Below are positions 2,103-49,988 of a stretch of 64,000 bases of DNA, in pieces. Source of the stretch: Auricularia sp. M13 (Eukaryota > Basidiomycota > Agaricomycetes > Auriculariales > Auriculariaceae). The translations under genes were made by a program, and so were the position numbers. Numbering within the stretch: position 1 is the first letter of the stretch; the number at the start of each line of letters is the position of its first letter. The DNA is taken from positions 3,472,001-3,536,000 of the forward strand of contig CM073202.1 in the NCBI GenBank assembly GCA_037042915.1, in the 5' to 3' direction. The notes below the pieces were generated by a model. The model saw only the letters and a list, made by a program, of their open reading frames with translations, ran no database searches and was not told where the DNA came from.

Positions 2103-2547
2103 AGGCCCCCGGCTAAGTCCGTCAAAGGTCCGATCACAGGGCCCACACAGCTGCCGGTTTTTCTGCTCAACGTCCGATCCAGCGCCCACACGTCCGCCAA
2201 AATTTTGGGCGGGGTTACGTTTACGGATCCCACACCTGAAAGGTCCGGCCACCATGTCCGAGGGCTGCGGCCCACACCAGGACACGGTCTGGAATTGCGC
2301 TGACGTGTTCTGTGCAAGCGATGGGCCAGTCGCGCGTGTCTTGTGCAACGTATTCATCGCGGGCGCCAGTCCGCCTAACCAGATTAAATCAGAGAAGCTA
2401 TCCCAGCAGCGAATAGACTCATTGTATGTATCGCCGGGCTTCTTGCTGTGCTCACTTCTGAATATAGGCTCTTTTGGCTCTGAGCTTGGACGCAAGACTG
2501 CCCAGCCGACGTGCCAGTTACGTCGCACCTGGTGTAGGCGGCAAAGG

Positions 2548-2556
2548 TATATAAAG
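2548..2556 (+). promoter_or_regulatory. TATA box of transposon 1 gene
   Basis: TATATAAAG lies 79 bases before the proposed start codon at 2635 and inside the element, as expected for a self-contained transposon promoter. Confidence 0.5.
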
Positions 2557-4869
2557 GCAGGGGTTGGGCCCCACTCAGAGCATCGCCCGACTACTTCACC
2601 TGCTTCGGTCGCCTATAATCAAATCTCGACACCTATGCGCTCTCCAAAGCACTACGCAACGCACGGTACGCCGTCATATCTCACAATGTGCAGTCAATTT
2701 ATTCCCAGAAGCTGTGTTGCAGCCTTCTGAATGGACTGTAACGTCGCCTGTCGGCCTTATGGGATTTGTGCTGCGCTTTATCATTGTGCACTGCTGGAGC
2801 ATGCTCCTCTGCACTACTGGCGTCTATTTCAGTCTCGGTGCTCTTCGGATTGCCGGCCTGGCGCACTGCCCTCTGTCCCTCGCTATCTCGCTGTTACTTG
2901 CTCTCGTTCTTGTTTCTGGCAAGTGCAAGTACTTTGCTCACGTTCCCGATGTTAACCGCGCTCAAAACAGCTTTCGACGTCGTCGTACTCCGCTCTAATC
3001 TACTTCTAGGCCGCTTTCTCATGCGCTTGGCCGTAATATCTGCTATCCTTCCGCTATCGCTCGCCTCGGCAGGTTTCCTTTGCGCTTTCGGTGGGCATAA
3101 AACGGCCGTTCTCATTGTTTTCGGTCTGTTGCACTCCTTCGTCCTCGGGATTTTGTCAGGTATGCGCCCACTTGACTTCGTAATTGCGCCTCACACGTCT
3201 CAGCAACGGCGAGCACTGATCAGTCACGCCTGTTGGCTCTGTTCAACTCTCCACGCTACTCTCGGCTCCACAGCGCCAACGCTTCTCGGAGACGCTACCG
3301 CCAGTACGTGTTTATGAATCGGTGGCTTCGCTTCTTGCGCACGCGGGCCGCACGGCCTCGTATGGCGCAGTCTTCTCGATTTCTCCGGCCTTGGTCTGCA
3401 CCACGTACCAGTCGGCGTGGAGGTGCAGGTCCAACGCCCCCATCCCTGCGCAACTGCATCCCTTCTTCTAGCTCCTCTCTCAACGCCGACAATACGTGGT
3501 CACTTGCGAATGCCTGGCTTGACAATGCGATTTCTTCCCCTGATGCTTCGCTTTCTTGCCTTGCTCGTCAGTGCAAGACCCGTCTATCTGTCCTTCCTCG
3601 CGATGTCAGAATGCAATGTTTCAGCAACCAGGTGCTCATGTCCACGACATTGCTCGTCAAGCTCCTTGGTTCGGACTGGCTCTACGATGAACATATCAAC
3701 GCAGGCCACGAGTACATTCTCCACGAGCTCGGCTCTCGCTCTCGCGTTTGCTTTGTCACGACGTTGCAGTTCGCGGCGCTTCTCCAGTATCATCGTACTG
3801 CGGCCGGTCCTTATAACCCTCGACGTCGCCGGCAGATTGACGAGGAGATTCGCAACGGCTCGTTTGACATGCTTGTCATTCCCTGCTTCGTCAACGGTAA
3901 CCACTGGACTCGCATGGTGGTCGATCTGCGCTCCCTGACGATCGAATACATGGATTCCCGTGTGCGCGCCGCAGTTGCTCCTCCCGAGATGATTGCCTCG
4001 GTACGTTGGTGGCTGTCTGCGATCTGCGCCGGCGTCAGCTTCCGCTCTCTCGCATCAACTGCCCCGCACCCCAACCAGCAGGACGGCGACTCATGCGGTA
4101 TTGTTGTCCTCTCAACTTCCGCTGCCGATCTTCTCGGATACGAGTACTGGACGCAGGGCGAATGGAGGGAGCACCGGATACACTGGTTTATGCGTCTCAG
4201 TGGGCTCTTCCTTGAGGACGAACTTGTAAGTCTATTCTTTGAAAGTATTGAAAATGGTGTCGCTAATATACCTGATAGTTGAGCGTCCCGAACACTGATG
4301 GGCCGGACAGTCCAACCAATGATGACCCTTCTGACGATACGCATGGGACGGCTGCATGTCTAGACGCAATGGACGCTGATAGCGAGTGGGAGTTCCTCGA
4401 GGATTCGGAATTGCCCTTACCACCGCAAACTGCTCGTTGGAAGCTTCCCTCAGCTGAGGATGATGAGCTCGATATGGATATTGATCTGCCGGACCTCACA
4501 GACGTTTCTGACAGCGAAAGCGAAGCTGACGAGCCGCCAACCATACCTGCCAAGCGGTCGTCTACTTCGCGCCGTCCTAGCGCAAAGCGGCTTTGTGTTC
4601 CAGGAGGAAAGAAGGGTTCATCGTATGCTCGCCAGCTTTCTCTCAAGGCTGCTTCTACACGCTCAGACTTTGTCCCCAATGCCAGTAGCTTCCGTCGCTT
4701 CCGCCAGCGCATACTCTCGACTGATCCTGACGCTGAATTCGATACCCACAACTTGCGTCGGGTCCGCTGCTCGCGCTGTGCTACATGGGTCACCATGCGC
4801 ATGCTTTACGAGTGCCATCGCTTCATCCTGCACCGTCGCAGGGATTCTTGTGCACGGAACAAGGGAAAG

Positions 4870-4893
4870 CAGCCTTCGCTGGGTCGTTTCTTC
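4870..4893 (+). other. PIP-box-like motif (QPSLGRFF) in transposon 1
   Basis: The eight codons match the canonical PCNA-interacting peptide pattern Q-x-x-h-x-x-F-F exactly. They sit just after the cysteine/histidine cluster and before the transposase core. PCNA binding by a transposase has a precedent in the pogo element; here it is an inference from sequence only. Confidence 0.5.
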
Positions 4894-5942
4894 TCCACCA
4901 GTAAATCGTCTTGTGCTGGCCTGCCCCGTCGCTCTATTCCATGCCCTGGGCTAACTGCCGAGTCCGACAACCGTATCGAAGCATACCTCTCGCGTAGCGC
5001 AATGCCTGGCGGGGGGGCCCCATCTCGCGTCGTTCTCTCACGCCAGCTATTCGGTCATACATGGAGCATACTCTCCAACGGGCAGCAGCGCGCGGTCCGA
5101 GCGGCCGAGGAGCAGGGCTATCGCTGGCTTAATCGGCGTGGTGTTCAGGCAATCTACTCATCGCGTTGTGAGAAGACGGTCAATGTTGCGCCGCTGCAGT
5201 CAGTTCGACCATGCAGTGAATGCACGGCTCTGTGGCAGCTGAACATCTTCCGTAATGCCATGAATCGACCCACACCGCCCGAGGAGCGCCTCAAGTTTAC
5301 TCCCGAGTGGAGTCGCTCGCCTGAGCTTGGCTTGATTTACACCCGGTACACTGGTGTACGCGCTCTGGTGGATTCGGTGCGTAGCATCAGTTTCACTGAT
5401 GCATTTGATTCTGATACCTTCGCAGAACAAAAACAGTGTTGCACACATGCTCGTTGACTTTGCCCGAGGCGTCGCAAATGGCTTGTATAACAAGCAGGAG
5501 GTGATCCTTGGCGCAATCCAGGTTATCATGGAGAAGACACGTCGAGGAGACCTGGGCCTAAAGAACACCGGTTTTGCATTCCCACCTGAGTTCGATAATT
5601 TCTGCACCACACTGGCCACGATCTCGCCACGCGCATACCGACTCTTTCGTGACACCTTTGGGGGCCGTGGTCTGCGCAGCATGCGGTACGTACTCCATAT
5701 TCAATCGTGCTATCCCACTGTACTCACTCAGGCACAGTGCTGTTCGTGCCCGTGCACCTCGCTTTCAACCCGGAATTACGGATGAGAACGTTGCCGCGGT
5801 GGCCAGGATCCTTGCCTCATACGAGTATACTGGGCCTGTCGTGCTGTCCTGCGATGATTCAAAGCTTCAGCCTGCGCTTCACGAGATGGCGCAGCCTGAT
5901 GGGGTTTGGCTGGTAGTTGGGAGTGTGGGGGAACCCCGGGTT

Positions 5943-6633
5943 CACCTTGCTTGAAAGGTCTCTCCCGGGTCAAAATGGCGCCAACGTTTCCACACTGATC
6001 CGGCTTACTTGGCTAACGCGTCTGACCATGCCCCCTGGCGGCCCCGGGTTCGACTCCCGCTACGGCCTTGTCTAGCACACTCACCCCAATGAGGTTCCTA
6101 CGGATGAAAGCTGCATTTAAAGTATGAATACGCCCTCCCTGTTATCCCGTCAAACGATACTCTCCAATACTTATTGCCGTCCTATCTACGAAGACAATCG
6201 CATTTATGCTGCATGAACAACACCAACGCTCCACCCAAGGGAAATACAGTACCCTCAAACATAACATGGGAGTCGCCATAAACAAGTGTTTTAACGAGCT
6301 TGGCCTACAACACCGGCAAATTCAAGATCTAATTTGTATCGATTGTCCAAGTTCAACGAGTCTCAGCGCTTGCTGAGTCTCTGGATCCAAAGCTTGTAGA
6401 CACTACATACCGCTCGTCCGTTGTGTTCATTCTGGATTGAATGAGCCAGATGGCCAATTGCCGAAAGAATGAACCATGCGAGCTCACGCATTCAATGCTC
6501 ACTGTGGAAGTGCATCTGGTGCAACGAGAGGTCAGGCTATGCTCTCTCAGGCTCTCTCTTGTCACACAAGCAAAAAGCATCAAATTATGGTCAATTATCA
6601 AATTTGACTACATACTTGCATTCAAGCAAGGTG
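5943..6633. mobile_element. Nested 0.7-kb insertion inside the transposase gene
   Basis: CACCTTGCTTGAA at 5943-5955 is repeated in inverted form at 6621-6633. Between the two copies the transposase frame is lost (stop at 5952-5954), and coding that resembles the transposase resumes shortly after. The other introns of this gene are 43-53 nt, so an intron of this size would be out of character. The insert contains a tRNA-like segment near 6010-6067. No clear target duplication was found (flanks GTT and TTT), so the class is open. Confidence 0.5.
5995..6068 (+). pseudogene. tRNA-like (tRNA-Arg-type) remnant
   Basis: A perfect A-box match (TGGCTAACGCG, 6010-6020) and a B-box match (GGTTCGACTCC, 6047-6057) are present, with GCGTCTGAC after the A box as in fungal arginine tRNAs. 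The boxes are about 7 bases too close, the anticodon arm does not fold and the acceptor strands do not pair well, so this is not a working tRNA gene. It could be a decayed tRNA copy or the head of a SINE-like sequence. Confidence 0.4.
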
Positions 6634-9554
6634 TTTGCCGGCAAGGCCGGCCGCTGCTGAATGTGAGGAACGAAGACGACATTGATGCTGTCATAGCACA
6701 GCTTGGTGACGATATAGCTACAAAGGTTCGCATTTCTGAATAGAACCGAGCTCTGCTCAATCCACCTCCAGTTACGGCTGTGGATCATCGTCATTCCCAT
6801 CCCGCAGGTCCCACCGATAGTTCTCGCTGCCGTCTCACGCTCCGAGTCAGACTCGGCGGAGTCACTCTTCGAGCTCCATCGCTCTCTCCTTTCCCGACTC
6901 CATTCACACGGCATCTACCCTGTCGCCTATGCTTCGGACGGTACAGAAACGGAGCGCAAGCTGCAGCGTCTCATCAGTGCCAGTGCGGACTCGGTAAGGA
7001 GCTATTCCGTCTCCAGTCCCATCGATGGGTGCAGTTTCGGGATCTCAGTTGCGCTGTTTTCTGGACGGCCCCAGATCATGGTCCAGGACTCGAAGCATGG
7101 CGCGAAGACCGGTCGCAATCAGCCATTCAGTGGCGCGTGCCTTCTGACGATCGGGAACGATATCCTACACTACTCTCAGGTTCTGACAGCGTCTCTGTCT
7201 CCGGGATCGCCCCTGTTCAAGCGTGATGTCGTCAAACTTGACCGTCAAGATGACCGCGCTGCTGTACGGCTGTTCTCGGCAGAGTTTCTCGCGCACCTTA
7301 TTCAGCTCTATCCCGCGGCGCAGGCTCTCATTCTCTTCCTCTTTTTCCTTGGCGGTCTATTCGATGCGTGGCAGAACAGACGCATGGGCCATACCGTTCG
7401 CATCCTACTAGCTCTTCGCTGTCGGTACTTCTTGACTGCGTGGCGGGCGCACATCCAGGCGCATCCCGATCATTATTTGCATCGCAACTTCATCTCACGC
7501 GAGTCCTTCGACATTTTTACGACGATATGTGATAGTCTCATCGGCCTCATCCTCGTCTATCGCGACTACTTCCCCCAGTACCCATTCTTGCCGTGGCTAC
7601 ACTCGACCGAGCAGCTTGAGCATGTCTTCGGTGTTCTACGGCAGCTCAAGCCCGATTTTACTTTTTACGACTTCCTGAACTTCGTCTATAAGCTCGTGGG
7701 TATATTGATGGGCTCTTTTGGGGGGCTATCCGAGGAGGAACGCGCCAACCGTACTGCGGCGGGCTACTGGCATACCTACGGCGACACCAGAGAGATCGAT
7801 CTGCATGCACTTGCAACTTGGCCCACGGACGAAGAAGTTTCTTCTATATCTGACCGCGCTATAGATGATGTTCAGGCTCTACTTGAGCTCGTGGGGATTG
7901 ATGCTCGTGCTGTCTTGCGCGGAGATTTCCCACCGTCGGGTACAAAACCGGCGAAGCGCTCTGAACCTGCTGCGCCATGCCCAACTGCTGTCCGGAGGCA
8001 GCCTCGTCGTGCGTGCGCAAGCTTGTGCCGACTTCCGCCGTCGCTTGTTCGGGACTACTTGGAGGAGGATAAGGTCGACAGCTTACACGATCTTTTGGAG
8101 CGTCGAAATCAACTGCCGGAACAGCTTCCAGATGTTGACCGCGAGCTGGACACCGTCGTCGCCGCCGTTGCTGCTGCTGACTTGGACGAGTCTTTGGCCA
8201 TGTGAGCATAGTGGTTTTCTCACACGGGCTTTATTATTGATGTTCAATAAAGTGAACAGCTTCCTGATTGCGGCGACGAGGTCAAAAGTGGCGTATCCCA
8301 TCATGTGCGCACCTTCGTATCGCGTGCCCTCGAGTTCAATGCTCCTGGAAATGCTCTGGTATGCTTTACTGCTACGGGAGGTGCACGTCCCTCAAGATAT
8401 TGCAGGAACGTTACCCACTTCCCACACCGCTTACGGCAACTGCGCTGCGTGAAAATCTTCAACTGCTTGTATTCGATCGTGAATCATCAGTGTGGCTTCA
8501 CAAGCGAGGCTTTGCGAAAAGGTAAGGCTTCTGGTTTGACGAGCACCGGCCCAGAAGTCTCGTCTACGCAACGTTTGAAGACAAAGCTGGCATCCCAGCT
8601 TCGCGCAATCATGGCGAACGTGCAGGTCCTGGCCACAAGCGGCTATCAGCGCGCTGTGCGCTGGAAAGGTCCCAACGCTGTCTCAGGCGGTACACCAGCT
8701 TCTGAGCAGGTGGCGGCATCTGCAGCCGCTGCCTTCGACCGCGCACGAGCGACCGCCTTCAGCGCGTTCGTGAGCATTCATCCGCAGTTTCCTTCGGCGA
8801 ACGTCACCACTCTATGCCGTCTTGTACTCGAGGACACGTCTGCATCTTGCGTGCTTGTTTTGACAGCTGGTCGTCGTCCGAGGGTTGCCTTTGGGCAAGG
8901 TGCGAGTTAGATCGGTCTCTGGTGGAGATATACTGATTGTGGAGCAGTACGAACCATGGTTACAACTATATCGAAGCGATACGTACCCGTAGAGTCAGTT
9001 CCCAGCCTTTCGGGGCTGGCCTATCTCGGTGTGCAGCTCTTCACACGCGATCGGCCCACGCGGTTCACCAGCAATACGGAACCGCTGCTTGGAAGCGCAA
9101 CGTTCATCCACATTCCCGCAACACACGTTCTCTTCTCGTTTTCCACATTCTCCATCGCTCAGTCGAGTGGAACAGGAAGTGAGGCGCACATTCGCTACCT
9201 TTCACCCGCTCAGGACGCCCTTCAAATCATTCGAGCTGCGGAACAGCAGCAGGCTCAAATCGTCGAAGCATTGCGGCAGTTCAAGCGTGCATTGAAAGAG
9301 AAACATGCACAGGACGTGGATTCGGGCGACTCGGAGGATGGGGATGATGGTGAAGCTTGAGCTGGGTAGTACAAGAAGTACATCGGGTTTTGTACGTGTT
9401 CCTGCCAATTTTTACAGGTTTCATTTTCCTGGGCCCACACGGGACCCGCCCGGGACCATGTTTGAGAGGTTGGGCCCACATATTTGCCAAACTTTGCGCC
9501 CCACATGAGTGACAATTCCGACATCGGACCTCAAATGACCTTAGCCGGGGGCCT

Positions 9555-24250: not shown

Positions 24251-25916
24251 CAAGGGGACAGCGGAAGCAAATTGAACGGCACCGGGTTGGTAACCTCTGC
24301 AAGCCACCGAGGCCCGACCCATCCATCCTATCTCCGCGGATATACCTCCGAATTGCCTCCGGATGGCGCCTGTGCACCAATGTTTTATGTAGGATTCGAA
24401 ATTCCTGTATCCTGTGTGATAAGGGATGTCCTATAATGCTCTTGGGGCCTAGATTATTAGCTCCAGGTTACCCACAAGTCTCACCGGAGCATCATCTCGG
24501 AACAGCGATGGATTACATCAGCAATCGGTATGCATCCGAGTATTGCAAGAAAGTCGCAAATACACTCATGGGAGGTACTACTGGGGCAACAGAGCATCCC
24601 AGCTTGCACAAAAGACCAATGATGATGCGGTTCCATGTCAAAACAGTCGCCGTTGGGGTCTCCGGAGCCAAATTCGCCGGGGGCCCGAACCTCTCCAGCG
24701 GAAGATCGACCGACCCATCCATCCTAACCCGGTGTTCCGGATTTTGCCGGCTGGGCCCCCTTGTAACTGAGCGCTATACAGTCGCGTTGAACTCCGGCAT
24801 TCTTGACGTTCCAATGCCTCAAGGCTTCGAAGGTCCGTTCTTATAACTCGCAAGCTCATGCACTCAGTTCTCTGCTCGAGATCCACTCTGCGCAACGGTC
24901 CAACTTCGCGCAGCGGCAGCAATTTCACCCCGCGGCGATCCGGCGGATGCAGCTGGCGGAGTTGGAAAACGTCTGTCTTGACTCTCGCTCGCGGTTCTAG
25001 CCACATCTCCAGCCGCTCATTTCGCCCGTTCTCTCTAGGAAACGATGCAATAGCCAATCTACACGTAGTTCTCCGCTAGAAGACTCCGCGCAGCCATTCT
25101 GCACTGCGGTCGCGTCCTGTCCGCGAGTGCACAAGACGAGTTCGGAGTACAAACAGTGCTTGTGGCTCGCCCATTGTGAAAAAACAGGGCATATGTAAGC
25201 TTAACATTCCTTACATTCCTTGCCTTTCATTCCTTCACCCTACCTCGATCTTGCTGTCCCGCTCCGACGGCGCCGTTGCCCGCCCGTATGACCGCCTTCG
25301 ACGCACGTCGCTCTCAAGCCGCGGATAAAGCTGCACAGCCCACCCATATATCTCCGCTGGGTGCCGGCGCTTATGGAGTTGCCTCTTTGGTGCGTTCCTT
25401 GACTGCTCTTACCGTCATGGTGGCTCATCCGAGTCGCTGTCCGACTACAGGCTGCCACCAACGCTCCGATTCAGAGCGAAAAAGAAACGATCACGTTCCC
25501 AAAGGGAGATCCTCCCTCTCAAATGCGCTAGATAACATAAGCGTTACCAATTCTCCGTTCAGTGTAAGTGGCAGCATGGACCTCACACTGTATGACTGAC
25601 GAAGTTGCTGCTCAATAATATCTTTTGAAGGTCGCCTGTCCACCTCCAGAGCTGACTAGAGTCAGAGTAACATACCTTGCACATGAAGGAAATACTGTGC
25701 TAGTACGCGAAGGCAATTACCTGGGCTACGAGGATCATACCCGTGCTGAGGTCAGCCAATAATTCGTTGATTGAGAGAAGTGGCTACATCCTGCAATTTT
25801 CTCACCACAACTACCACCCTACAGGAATTACGCCTGAAGTTTTCTCTCACGACCACGCCCGTGAGCGATGCGTATGTAGTGATTCGAGAAAGGGACATCG
25901 TCAATATTTGCAAAAT
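24251..25916. other. Spacer, no confident gene
   Basis: Two stretches share CGACCCATCCATCCTA (near 24315 and 24713), hinting at a dispersed repeat. An open frame at 24436-24846 and another from ATG 25286 to 25599 have no recognisable motif. Nothing I can support as a gene. Confidence 0.35.
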
Positions 25917-41209: not shown

Positions 41210-42244
41210 TACTGCTGTTTGCAGAACGGAAGGCGCCGGCGCAAAACGGCGATTTTCCGAGTGCTTTCCTCGCGCTTGCCGTTCCTCGAGCAATTCAATT
41301 CCCCTTCCCACCGAACTTTGCAAGCGACCTCTCAGTGCTCTAAGGGACCTCTCTACACAACAGGAACATCAGGTGAACCGGTTATCCTCGCCCGGTATCA
41401 CTCCGGCGGTCTGAGCCTCCATCCGACGCTGTCACCAGCGTCTAGCTTGCCAACGGCACAACGCGCCGGCATGCAACCTCTCGTTCAGCTTTACGGCACT
41501 CTACTTAGGCTGAAGCGCGCTGGAAAAGCGCGAGAATTCACTCCAAACAGCCACAGATGGCCAGGCGAGTGTGCACTCAGAAAGGAATTCGTGTCATAGC
41601 ATCTCTACTGGTATACAGAGGGCAAAGACATTGGTTGTAGGGTCTCATACAAGTAAATACAAACATTTTTATGAGATTATTCTGAGCTTGGTCCTGCGTG
41701 ACAGCAGATGTAGAATGATTCTTCTAGGCTGGCCGCTGGGGGAACTCACAACAGAATGTATCCTTTGCCCGTCATTTGCTGGTTCAATCTAGGTGTGTTC
41801 ATCCTGAATACATCAGGCCTAGCAACTTCAACCCGGATACATGGCCATTTGAGCATTGTATCCTCAAACTATTTAAGCGCAATTCTGTCCGAACCGTCTG
41901 TGGCCGTTTGGAGTGGATTCTCGCACTCTTCCAGCGCGCTTCAGCCTAAGTAGAGTGCCGTAAAGCTGAACGAGAGGTTGCATGCCGGCGCGTTGCGCCG
42001 TTGGCAAGCTAGACGCTGGTGACAGCGTCGGATGGAGGCTCAGACCGCCGGAGTGATGCCGGGCGAGGATAACCGGTTCACCTGATGTTCCTGTTGTGTA
42101 GAGGGGTCCCTTAGAGCACTGAGAGGTCGCTTGCAAAGTTCGGTGGGAAGGGGAATTGAATTGCTCGAGGAACGGCGAGCGCGAGGAAAGCACTCGGAAA
42201 ATCGCCGTTTTGCGCCGGCGCCTTCCGTTCTGCAAACAGCAGTA
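41210..42244. mobile_element. Fold-back element with 352-bp inverted arms
   Basis: 41210-41561 and 41893-42244 are inverted copies that differ at only a few per cent of positions as far as I could align them; both begin outward with TACTGCTGTTTGCAGAACGG. The 331-bp middle is unrelated to the arms and has no clear gene. Apparent open frames in the arms (starting MQNGRRRRKTAIFRV) exist in both copies only because the arms are duplicates. No target duplication is visible next to the outer ends. It may be a fold-back transposon or a local inverted duplication. A transcript across it would form a very long hairpin. Confidence 0.65.
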
Positions 42245-43802: not shown

Positions 43803-43810
43803 GCTCTTGG
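43803..43810. repeat. Target-site duplication of transposon 2, left copy
   Basis: GCTCTTGG, identical to 49981-49988, directly outside the left terminus. Confidence 0.85.
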
Positions 43811-44127
43811 CAAGGGTCCCTCGTCGGCAAATTCCGATATCACGAGGCGGGGGGGCGGGGGGTCAAATTGGGGGGCTTGTGAGAATTTTTTAATTCAAGA
43901 ATTTTGATCACAAATTAGGAGTTTTGACGTACAAAATCACCTCAATTCGTCTTTCGGATGCATCCGGCGATGTCCGGGTGCGTAATGCGCGTTGGCTGCT
44001 GCCGTCATGCGTGGTGCAGCAACTTGTGGTTCAAGGCGACCGATGTCGCCCCGTTTCTTACGAGCTGCGGATCAACACAGGTTGTCTTCCAACCACTTAG
44101 TGTCTGTTCTGCTCGTGCGTACCTGCG

Positions 44128-47100
44128 ATGTCCACCGGCGCCTCTAGAAGGGGCGTAAGCATACAAGTAGGGCAGACGGCCAGGAGCACGAGGTAATTCC
44201 TCACTCCCTGGCGTGACACGTCGTGCTTACCTCTCTTTCAGTTTGATATAACGTCGACATGGGACTGCAACTGCGGTCTCCAAGTCAAGGTCGGCACAGG
44301 TGGATTCAAGAACCTCGAGATCCACCGTGCATCCGCTGAACATGCGCGACACTTCAAGCTGCTTTCTACTGCTCCTGCCGTACGCAAGCTGAAGAATGGC
44401 TCGATTTCGAACTTCTTCAAACCCAAGGTTGTTACTCCCGCACCTGCCGCGCCTCCGCTGCTCCAAGGACCCTCTGCTACTTCCCTCGCTCCTGCTGCCG
44501 GCACTGCGTCTCTACCTGCGCCAAAGAAGTCTCCATACGCGATCATAGCAGAATTCCAGGACGCTATTCTTCGCATACCGTCCAGCGTTCCTGAGGCAAC
44601 TGTACTGGATGTTACGGCCTCTTTTGCTATCCCACCCATGTTCCCGGACGGAATCCTCGAAGACCAGGACGCTAGAGAAGAGATTTGGGAATCAGTCGAC
44701 GCTGCCCTCAATCGAAACTTCGGTGGGGACTGTTCCGAGGCCTCGATCGCGAAACTCGTTCGCCGCGGCCCTCTCGGCGCACAGGCTCTCTGCGACTGGA
44801 TCGAGCAACACATCAAGGACGCCGGAATCGACGAGTTTCTTTTCCATGGCAAAGTGTCACGCATTATTCGCGCTATTGACGGACTGTGAGCTCACATGTT
44901 AGCCTCGCTATGGTGATGGAATCTGACTGTACAGCTAGATGCACTGCGAGCGGAAACCAGTCCGCGCCACCTGACCCAGCTGGAATTCGCGACCACCAGA
45001 AGGATATTATTGATCTTACAGCGGACGACGATCAGGATCCTGCTACGCAAGCGCCGACTGCAGATTCTCGTCCACATTTGTCTGACACCGCAGATCGCGA
45101 TCATACGGACGTCACGCCAGCCCGTGCGGGTCCCCGGGGCCCGACAAATGCTTTTCAGCGCTGTTACGGACTTCCCGTCGAGCTGGCAAAAGATAGAGTC
45201 GCCGGAGCTGCATATCCGTGGGGAATGGACATCAGCCGTCGCTTTGCGTGGAGAGGGAACGTTGTAGACGAACAGCTTTATATCAAGTCTACGTTCTGTC
45301 GCACGAGTAGCGCCACTGTACCATGCGCGGAGTGTTCTGACCTGAAGACTCGGCCGCTCGTCCTCAATCTTCTTGATCGCATCCTGAACGGTGTATCGCA
45401 GTTTACCAACACCCTTTTCCTCAGCTGGGAGAACATGTACGACTCGAACGGCCGCCTACGAAAGGAGAACAACAAGCACAAGCTGGAGGCTCTTTCTTTG
45501 GCGCGAAAGCTGACACGAGTCGTGGGGACGGTGGACGACCATAATCGCCTTGTTTGGGCGATCGCAAACGGTAGGTCGCATGGTTTAGAGAACGCACGGA
45601 GTGCTCATTGCTAGTAGATGACATTCCTCGCATTTCTGCGGTCCTCAAGGTCGCATTGAATGGCAAGCGTAGCGTGCGCGGGATGCTCAGTCAGGTCGAC
45701 AAGGCTGCGCGACAAGTTTACCACGCTCGCAGCTATACCGAGAAAGATCGCGCTGTTGCAACTCTCTTCCATCGTCTTGGTGGCGACGCAGTATCTTCCC
45801 TTGCTTCTCGTGCCCTTGGTCTCCCATCCCCAGAAACGATCCGCCGTCATTCTCATGTCCCCGCAGTCCGGATCTCTGCAGGATATCCTACACCGGCCGA
45901 GGTTGATTTCAACATCAACAGCATGTACCCCACCGCCATCCCACTGCCGCTACATGGCACGCGAACTGGCGTCGTCCTGATGATCGACGAGTGCAAGGTG
46001 GAGGAACGGCTACGATGGGATCCTAGCACGAACCTCATCCTGGGAACCTGCCGTGAACACTCGAGCCATCTTGATCTTGAGTTCCGAAATCTGGATGCAG
46101 CGATGGCTGTCTCGTCCGCACTCCAGTGTAAGTCTGTACATCTCTCCAAGGAGGTGAGCGCCATCAGTCGATGTTGTAAACTGTTTTCTGACCGATTTCA
46201 GATGACAGTCGCAGCTCTGGGTCCGCTGATGCGTGAGTCGCGCGACAACGTTGCCCGGCCCATCCACGTTTCGGGAACATGCAAACTCGAGGACGCGGCC
46301 TCGCAGATGGAACTACTCCGAACAATCGTTGAGACGGCTTCGAAACATCCTAAGCTGCAGAACGCGAGGATCTACTCAATTGCGACCGATGGGGAATCGA
46401 AACGCGGCAAGGCGCTAGTGCCCTTAACTCTCTGCCAGACACTGCCGCACGACTCGCCGCTGTATCCCATCCTCCACAAGCTACCGCTTTTCAATCTTCT
46501 CTGTGGCCCATATGGGCTCACATTGAGCAAAGACCCGAAGCACCTCTTCAAGCGCATGCGGAGCAATTTGCTTCGTCGCAATGGCACTTCAGTCTGTCGC
46601 ATTGTTATCACGCCTGCACTGCTCAAGGAGCATCTTATCCGAGCCGGGCTGTCTCCAGAGCACGCCCAATCTCTCGTCACCGAGTCCGATGAGCCGCCGA
46701 GCGACGCGGTCCAAAAGCAGGTTCAGAAACACTTGATCAGCAACGGATTTACGCCCTCACGCATTCGCGCTCTCATGAATCCAAATGATAAGCAGGATGT
46801 CCCGCTTGCGTATTCACTTCTCGTTGCGATTATGAAGCTTCCCCCACCGGGACCGGAGGACTCGTTTCAGTGGATACGAACGCGGAAAGCTTTGAACCTG
46901 CTCGGATGCATGTTTGGCTGCTTCCTGAAGCCATTTGTTACTCTCACGATGAGCGCGAGCGAGCAAATCCAGTCACTTTCGGCAGCCATGCATATGATGC
47001 TGGCACTCTACGCGGACGGCCGCGGAGCATTCGTCCCCGTCCAGCTCTACGCAGATTGTGCTCATATGGTCAAGAACACTGTGTTCACAGTCGCCAAGAC

Positions 47101-49798
47101 CCAGATTGATAACCCCGAAGGCGACTTTTTCCTGTGTCTCGAAGGCTCAGATCGGCTCGAGGACGACTTTGGGAATATGCGCTGCGCCGTCGGCAATGAC
47201 TCAAATGTCGACATGCTGCAGGCCTCTTCGCGGCTGTCATCGGCGGCAGAGGTCTCCATCATCTTTGGGGATCACCCAGAGTGGGATCGCACAAAGCGGC
47301 GGCTCCAGCTTAGGCCGCTGGAGGAGCACGGTGCACTCTTAGACCGAGGTGTCGATCACATTAGCCCGCGCTCGTGGATAGGCGATGTCAACGTCAGCCG
47401 TGTCTCCCTACTTACATCGTGGAACGAGGGACGACACTCGGCCGCCGAAACACTCGCTAGGCATGGTGCAGACGTCCCATTTGAGCGGATGCGGGCCCAG
47501 GGGAATATCGACATTTTACGACCCATGGGAACATACTGCTTCAACGACGAGCTTCTCGACGGTGAAGAGAATGAGGATATCCCAGAGGTAAGTACTCTGA
47601 TCGTTTCCTGTCAACATATCTTTGACTTACATTCTAGCAGACCTCTTTACCTACGCCGGCTGCAAACCACCAGATCGGTAGCTCTAGTGAGCTTGAGGTG
47701 GACGATTTTGTGGCCGCCGAACTCGCTGAGCAGCGCCGTGCGGACAATGGCCCGACAGGCGCATCTGAACCCTGGATATTTTCGTCAGCCGGCGACCCGA
47801 CATCGAAGATATACAAGGCTACGGTGTTACGGCTTGTTCTTGACCCCCTGGATCCGCTTGGACCAGACTCCACAGATCGTTTGCAGCGTGTGCAGGGCAA
47901 GAAACGCTATATAGACGATGTTCCGGAGGATTGCTCTGTGTCGTTGGACAGCGCAAATGACGGCGAGGATACTTCGCGGCTCATTATTAACGATATTGCT
48001 GCTACCCTGCTGCGATGTTACAGTGCTGCCTTCACTGCCATCATACAGATATCGTCTCTCTTCGCTCACTCGAAACCGGTGCAAGTTCTATCTGGCGCAA
48101 TGCTCAACGATCCCTTGAATCACGTTGGGTTCCAAGTTCTGCGGCTAGTACCTCAGTCGGCCGACGATCACGACGGGCTTGACTGGTCCTGCACGGCTGA
48201 TACTGTTCGATTTGGGTCAACGGACGCCACGCTCTCAACCATCGCGCCGCTGATTCAGCCCTTAAAGCCGGTCACTGTGATCCCGGCTGACGGAAGCGCG
48301 CTGTTCATGCATTTCACAAAGGATGATCTGACAGCACTGACTCTGCTTCTGCTCGAGAAGGTCGAGCAGGACAAGAACCTATCCTTACCAACAGTAAAGA
48401 AGGCGCCTTCGTTCCCCTACAGGCTAAATGGTACGTCAATACCCTTCCATTTGATGCATACTAATGTATCACTTTGTAGACAAGTATTGCTTTGCAGCCC
48501 AGAAACCGGACAACTCGAGTGTGGGTGTCGACAAGCTTGCATGCGATCGCTGTCACGCGCGGGTCAAGATTGAATCGGTCCCGGGCCTCGTTAACCATAT
48601 TTCCGCCCACATTCTTTACGACAGCGCAGTTCGGCAGACAGCGCAGTACTGTGGCTTTTGCTTCAATTCAGACGGCAAGTGTCGCTTCTTTCTCCGCAAG
48701 AAGGGCGACAATCCTCGGAACCAGCAACTCGATCTCGAGCGCTGCATCTGCCCTAGGTTACCAACCCAGTTTTCCTACGGCTCCGCAAGCAAGACCAAGA
48801 AGTCCTCCCCGAGCTCTAACGTGCCAATTTGGTGTCCATTGTGCCCAGACGACGCACCTGCAGTCTGGAAATACAACCTCAAGCTTCATCTTGAGTCAGA
48901 CCACCCTTTGGCCGACGCACAGAACTTCAAAGATCAATGGAAACTGTCGAAGAGCGAAAAGGACGGCCTTGCCAACCTCTGGACGCGCATCTGTAATTCT
49001 CGCAAAACGAGCAAGCCAGCGGCGGAGCCGAAGCTTGCTATCTCAGCGGCACATTCTTCTCTCATGGCGCTTCAGTAAGTAGGATCGCTTTCAATCTTGC
49101 GCCTTGGCTAATCCGCTCGTAGTACCTCTGAGCTCGAGTCAGACGATGAATGCGAAGGCAATCAAAGTGCCAACGCCCCAGAGCCTCCTATGCACTCTGA
49201 TACGGAGCTAGCACCTCCTGATACACTCAGCGAGGTTGTAGAAGCACCGAATCGTCGACAAGATGCCATACAGGTTACGCTGATGCATACGGACGAGGAG
49301 GGTGACACCGGCACCGTGGTTGATCCTGCTGCGACACACTGCGCTCGCACTCCGCCTCCCGCGGTGATCGTAGCTTCCCAGATGGGTTCAGCCACCGGAG
49401 TCGACACTGACACGGTGACCACACCCACCGCCGATGTTGCACACGCAGCTGCCATTGAGCCCGAGGTTCCAGTGGCACCTTCACATGCGGCCGGACGACC
49501 GAAACGGAAGCGCGGCCGCGCGGTCATTGAAGAAGTTTGCGTTTGCGGAGAAGAAGCAGCTGTGCATGGCAACGATGTGCCTGACGGCTTTGTTGAGTGT
49601 GTAGGTTTGGGATGCGAAACACATTGGGTGAGCAAAGAACTGGCAACTGCTGAGCGGCATCGTCCTGACGGTTCTCAGTTTCACGAGGCTTGTGCATTAT
49701 CATTGATGGGCACTCGCGAGCTCGTACTTCCATTCACATGCCCATCTTGCGAACACAGCGGAAACGGCCCATCAAAGCGACAGCGGGCGCGATACTGA
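44128..49798 (+). CDS. P-element/THAP9-like transposase (1779 residues)
   Basis: Seven exons: 44128-44154, 44242-44885, 44939-45570, 45615-47587, 47638-48430, 48480-49074 and 49123-49798; lengths total exactly 1780 codons. N-terminal zinc-binding-like region with C18, C20, H37 and H43, then SISNFFKPK (residues about 63-71). Residues near 259-266 give IIDLTADDD, a SUMO-interacting-like motif. The transposase core follows the P/THAP9 order: VLMIDECKVEERLRWD (Asp about 559), YSIATDGESKRG (Asp about 693), DPKHLFKRMRSN (about 741) and GSDRLEDDFGNMR (Glu about 950). These would be the RNase-H-fold metal-binding residues that cut and rejoin DNA. A further Cys-rich stretch (CDRCHARV, YCGFCFNSDGKC) and a C-terminal PHD-like zinc finger (CVCGEE...CPSCEH) end the chain. 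It has no Ulp1 domain, unlike its relative in transposon 1. Start chosen because its short first exon gives phase 0; an upstream start is possible. Confidence 0.8.
45000..45040 (+). other. SUMO-interacting-like motif in transposase 2
   Basis: Codons for DIIDLTADDDQD: a hydrophobic core I-I-D-L-T followed by acidic residues, the classic SIM layout. Function inferred from the motif only. Confidence 0.45.
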
Positions 49799-49980
49799 TA
49801 ATATACTCATTATTTGGACCTCGAACAATCTCATTTGCTCATGTATATATGTATGGTTGGTAATTTTACTGTTGGCTGACGGTTAGTGCTTTCTGTGTGC
49901 GAAAGGGGGGGGGGTCCAAACGAGGCCCTTGTGAAAATTTTTGGCCCTGTGTCCGGAATTTTTTTCTTGAGGGACCCTTG

Positions 49981-49988
49981 GCTCTTGG
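49981..49988. repeat. Target-site duplication of transposon 2, right copy
   Basis: GCTCTTGG, identical to 43803-43810, directly outside the right terminus. Confidence 0.85.

Follow-up and report, generated by a model that had tools for sequence, protein, structure and literature searches.

A 6170 bp element of Auricularia sp. M13 as a probable, divergent member of the P superfamily of DNA transposons

A 64,000-nucleotide stretch of the Auricularia sp. M13 genome (GenBank assembly GCA_037042915.1, contig CM073202.1, positions 3,472,001–3,536,000 of the forward strand; hereafter the window) contains a 6170 bp element, at positions 43811–49980, which is very probably a DNA transposon of the cut-and-paste kind, from a divergent P superfamily branch of fungal type. 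The original prediction, made from the letters of the window, had called it P-like, and this is borne out by the predicted fold of its transposase, by signature residues kept in all 12 catalytic cores compared, and by its ends and their 8 bp duplication.

The target-site duplication (TSD) GCTCTTGG, 8 bp long, is present at both flanks (43803–43810 and 49981–49988). The terminal inverted repeats CAAGGGTCCCTC match at 12 of 12 positions and span 43811–43822 on the forward strand and 49969–49980 on the reverse strand; exact matches to this 12-mer in the window number two, one at each end of the element. The duplication and the inverted ends starting with CA had both been predicted, and both are found. 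These features, the ends being of the same kind in relatives, are those expected of the P superfamily. About 40 bp inside each end lies a similar 38 bp stretch, in direct and not inverted orientation (43853–43890 and 49905–49942, both on the forward strand). Its comparison score of 18.0, against a mean of 7.8 and a maximum of 14.5 in 200 shuffles, stems partly from runs of G that the shuffles do not preserve.

I searched the whole genome, 52.1 Mb in 14 contigs, for the flanking sequence; its short introns and the kinds of transposon present suggest a fungus. The 400 bases to the left of the element match two other places, both of which are also among the matches to the right flank; each of these two sites runs on uninterrupted by the element, with GCTCTTGG present once where it would sit. 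Because the flanks have diverged elsewhere (66% and 82% for the left-flank match), these empty sites are paralogous and not allelic. As read from the sequence, the element is an insertion accompanied by an 8 bp duplication.

Members of the P superfamily have an RNase H-like fold with the order D, D, [C/D](2)H directly after strand 5, and E in helix 4 (PMC8230255, in excerpt). The predicted model of the studied protein shows an RNase H-like fold with D, D, D(2)H after strand 5 and E in helix 4, and its residues 306–512, mostly helices, form an insertion that separates strand 5 from helix 4, where the Drosophila P transposase has residues 339–528. In the numbering of the model, the residues assigned to the active site are D124, D258 and E515. 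Loss of a catalytic-like residue on closer comparison had been named as a reason to abandon the assignment, and no signature residue is lost in the 12 cores (L049, L058 and L059 left out; alignment A2 comprises seven of the 12). Eight residues of the P GTP-binding insertion were considered, namely K385, K400, V401, S409, F443, D444, N447 and D528; positions resembling D444, N447 (as D or N) and D528, placed by motif and not by residue alignment, are kept in all 12 cores.

Several observations weigh against this assignment. Identity over the aligned structure is 15%, only the three positions just named could be assigned among the GTP ligands, and the model includes a 16-residue read-through of intron 4 (residues 180–195, low confidence). 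No Pfam model reached its cut-off among the window pieces scanned, and searching the PDB by hmmsearch, using either of two profiles and allowing E values up to 10, gave no match to a P transposase, the only rows being for lipase and MnmE with E 0.59 or above.

The P-family model PF21787 was matched with a best E of 0.00034 in three of seven cores and 0.0024 in nine of 24 fragments. Alignment A1 consists of 24 exon pieces, not whole proteins; it omits L058 and L059 as near-identical to L057, and its L061 row holds a few misaligned intron residues. A KDZ transposase domain, for which Pfam has a model, was not matched in scans of pieces, fragments or cores. Similar subterminal repeats were seen in six of seven elements tested, the seventh (L036) being weak with a 13 bp match alone.

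Could the resemblance to P reflect a shared fold alone, the element belonging to a different superfamily whose RNase H domain is interrupted, such as hAT or Transib/RAG? RAG1/RAG2 and Transib do share the interrupted fold, but score lower against the model. Target duplications of Transib and RAG are 5 bp long; those of the studied element and its relatives are 8 bp. I consider this alternative improbable, and membership of the P superfamily remains the favoured reading.

The element has numerous relatives. The original prediction had proposed a search for further copies with these ends, and they are found, with differing 8 bp flanks: with up to three mismatches allowed, a 21-mer from the left end has 24 genomic matches and the reversed control has one. 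Another match to the left end lies at C9:2957788, outside the loci inspected for duplications. A right-end search located 14 loci besides the window copy (L034–L047), 12 of which are short elements of 492–1053 bp with both ends and perfect TSDs, all different. In one of the short elements (L035, 1010 bp), what seems to be a further element-like end, CAAGGGGGCACCGG, follows directly inside the left end and may mark a nested insertion. The close full-length relatives number three (L048, L049 and L050); their ends match, and each carries a perfect TSD that differs from the others. Eleven distant loci (L051–L061) carry homologues of the core exons, with CAAGGG ends and a perfect 8 bp pair in nine; for these the pair was picked by searching ends and duplication jointly, and L052 also offers a second, weaker candidate pair. 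Across the 29 loci tallied, a perfect 8 bp pair is thus present at 25 (window copy, 1/1; close full-length, 3/3; short, 12/14; distant, 9/11), or at 24 of 28 without L058, since L057 and L058 are one insertion inside a duplicated segment (98.5% identity over 8.8 kb). These two lie on contig C11, at about 25 kb and 2.42 Mb, and appear to reflect a segmental or assembly duplication including the transposon and its flanks; a third copy of the same element, L059, is on C9 without matching flanking 8-mers.

The four loci where the perfect pair is missing count against the P-type reading. L043 has the right end, but its left end is damaged and the outermost letters are mismatched; L047 shows the right end alone in the stretch inspected; L059, 99.5% identical to L057, has differing end 8-mers (CTTTCGCC versus TGTTCCGC); and L061, which shares 97% identity with L056, has its two ends but no duplication.

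Movement within the family appears recent in at least one lineage. Across the whole element L048 shares 99.4% identity with L049, which is on another contig, and the match stops at the element boundary; this confined near-identity, together with their different TSDs, shows recent movement of that sister family. The pair has a dN/dS ratio of 0.78, from very few changes, and both copies show frame changes, in exon 2 of L049 and exon 6 of L048. No close full-length copy of the window element was found in the genome, the nearest reaching 79% in left-end DNA and 83% in exon 5 protein, and the window copy is the sole, near-intact member of its subfamily seen there. The suggestion of a recent insertion therefore holds only in part: the intact duplication and the two empty sites agree with it, but with no close copy to compare, the age of this insertion cannot be set.

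The predicted gene of seven exons and 1779 residues, unbroken up to a single terminal stop, was reproduced exactly. However, relatives indicate two further introns, at 46154–46201 (48 bp) and 49628–49678 (51 bp), both stop-free multiples of three. The first is most likely an intron that is open by chance, because exons 4 and 5 are separated in relatives (by 46–64 bp in L048–L055 and L060; L056, L057 and L061 have no intron at this position). The second is most likely an intron because the region encoding a PHD-like finger is split in L048–L051. Exon 1 poses a further difficulty, since the window is one base shorter there than L048, L049 and L050, besides a six-base in-frame gap. With the donor common to these three relatives (44193 in the window), the window copy is out of frame with them and meets a stop at codon 25, ending the protein after 24 residues. 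A donor 38 bases upstream, at 44155, reads GTAAGC in the window and GTCAGC in the three relatives, and keeps the frame open, so that a protein may still be made by this alternative route. The best model from the sequence would have nine exons and code for 1746 residues, provided that this donor is used.

In this model, with all exons on the forward strand, exon 1 spans 44128–44154 and exon 2 (44242–44885) encodes an N-terminal CxC...H...H stretch that resembles a zinc finger by eye, with no Pfam match. Exon 3 spans 44939–45570. The RNase H-like domain begins in exon 4 (45615–46153; first catalytic D, codon 45986–45988), and exon 5 (46202–47587) holds its remainder with the helical insertion: the codons are 46388–46390 for the second D, 46532–46534 for the D of D(2)H, 46787–46789 for the D444-like residue, 47150–47152 for the D528-like residue and 47159–47161 for E. 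Exon 6 (47638–48430) may encode a second half rich in beta structure, its kind uncertain. Exon 7 (48480–49074) is rich in Cys and His and zinc-finger-like by eye, with no Pfam match, exon 8 (49123–49627) encodes a linker and the first half of the PHD-like finger, and exon 9 (49679–49798) its second half and the stop.

Comparison of the window copy with L048 over exons 2–7 (1482 codons) gave a dN of 0.130 and a dS of 1.59, hence a ratio of 0.08 that is approximate, as this dS is near saturation. In the comparisons, which included that of L048 with L049, codons containing stops were removed, and L049 entered without its exon 2, which is spread over three frames. Such a ratio implies that the lineage stayed functional for long. 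It bears on whether the window copy is a dead relic, its protein broken in exon 1 and movement relying on other copies, to which I assign close to, though somewhat less than, an even chance. The codon 25 stop, the missing base and the lack of near-identical full-length copies all favour such a relic. Yet the later exons are open, relatives match along most of their length, the upstream GTAAGC donor preserves the frame, and the exons are under strong constraint, though this describes the lineage and not the window copy itself. The element had been predicted to be complete; exon 1 makes its completeness doubtful. I infer that it may be active at present. Strong constraint and a single near-intact subfamily copy would also fit a domesticated host gene lying between repeats by chance; this is very improbable, as perfect ends and a TSD directly surround the gene, paralogous empty sites exist, and the many relatives each have their own duplication.

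Under the favoured reading as a P-type transposon, the transposase would recognise the terminal CAAGGG repeats and the subterminal direct repeats, and an Asp-Asp-Glu active site of predicted RNase H-like fold, interrupted by the helical domain, would excise the element. Judging from two or three conserved residues, GTP would probably serve as a cofactor for positioning, its role in Drosophila P. The excised element would then be joined into target DNA with an 8 bp stagger.

The Drosophila P element (PDB 6p5a, 6pe2) likewise has an 8 bp duplication and short non-autonomous copies, and its transposase shares the RNase H-like domain split by a helical insertion after strand 5 and ahead of helix 4, the D-D-D(2)H-E order, and a D located three residues ahead of the catalytic E. 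It differs in its inverted ends, 31 bp against 12 bp here, and in protein length, about 750 residues against 1746 in the conditional model. The studied protein also has extra Cys/His-rich C-terminal parts, including the PHD-like finger, and a Pfam-only search of its N-terminal pieces, with E allowed up to 10, gave no THAP match. Such domains occur in animals alone (PMC7776569, in excerpt). Zebrafish THAP9/Pdre2 resembles the element in its short ends (13 bp), 8 bp duplication and multiple internally deleted copies, but has a THAP domain and subterminal repeats that are inverted instead of direct (PMC7776569, PMC8230255, both in excerpt).

P elements are mostly restricted to Drosophila according to an excerpt of PMC5791352. 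The view that such elements are poorly described in fungi was partly right: the available part of PMC3164196 reported rust fungus P elements in 2011 (P-1_MLP, P-2_MLP, P-N1_MLP, P-N2_MLP and P-1_PSt), two of them autonomous. Like the studied family these are fungal, and the Melampsora ones have 8 bp duplications and both autonomous and non-autonomous copies, a likeness of descriptions and not of compared sequences. The terms 'P superfamily' and 'P element' are absent from the available part of PMC12730594, as are the words fungi, fungal, plants and PHD from PMC10983969.

In the PHD-like finger, the zinc-ligand order C, C, C, C, H, C, C, C (C4HC3) is invariant by eye in three distinct sequences. 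Its first ligand pair is CxC, where a usual PHD finger has CxxC. The PHD of BPTF was matched at E 6.4e-5, over the second half of the finger alone, as the best of 18 rows that included other zinc proteins; a Pfam scan of the region gave no PHD, and RING_2 alone at 0.099. Literature searches, which never paired both terms and left most subscription journals uncovered, returned no P transposase with a PHD finger. RAG2 carries a PHD finger. It is conceivable, if rather unlikely, that a separate fungal P branch, in which THAP is absent, added other zinc fingers and chromatin-reader modules and chooses targets through histone marks, in parallel to RAG2; the modules would be the PHD finger at the C-terminus and, possibly, a barrel of Tudor/chromo-like type encoded by exon 6.

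Three other intervals of the window resemble mobile elements. The first, of 7452 bp (2103–9554), has an 8 bp duplication GTTACAGG and inverted ends with 15 matching letters AGGCCCCCGGCTAAG, and is perhaps what the original prediction listed as a first P-like element. It contains an open reading frame (ORF) for a Ulp1-type protease (Peptidase_C48, E 3.4e-8) and a second with SDG, DSKH and EQLEHVFG motifs, P-like by eye, which had no convincing match in Pfam and none of significance in a profile comparison with the studied family. The second is a 513 bp short element (24251–24763) with CAAGGGG ends and the duplication TAACTGAG; it has 67 genome matches including itself, mostly to its ends. The third, of 971 bp (41242–42212), has inverted ends with at least 20 matching letters CAAAACGGCGATTTTCCGAG, CGCCGGCG on both sides, and an inner inverted match at 41384–42070.

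The predicted fold, and not the letters of the ends, points to a sizeable family of P-type transposases in a fungus-like genome, one missed by Pfam and including recently mobile members. This family offers a wider set in which to ask about the origin of the GTP-binding insertion. Should the PHD-like finger read histones, the guidance of P-type insertion by chromatin would become testable outside animals.
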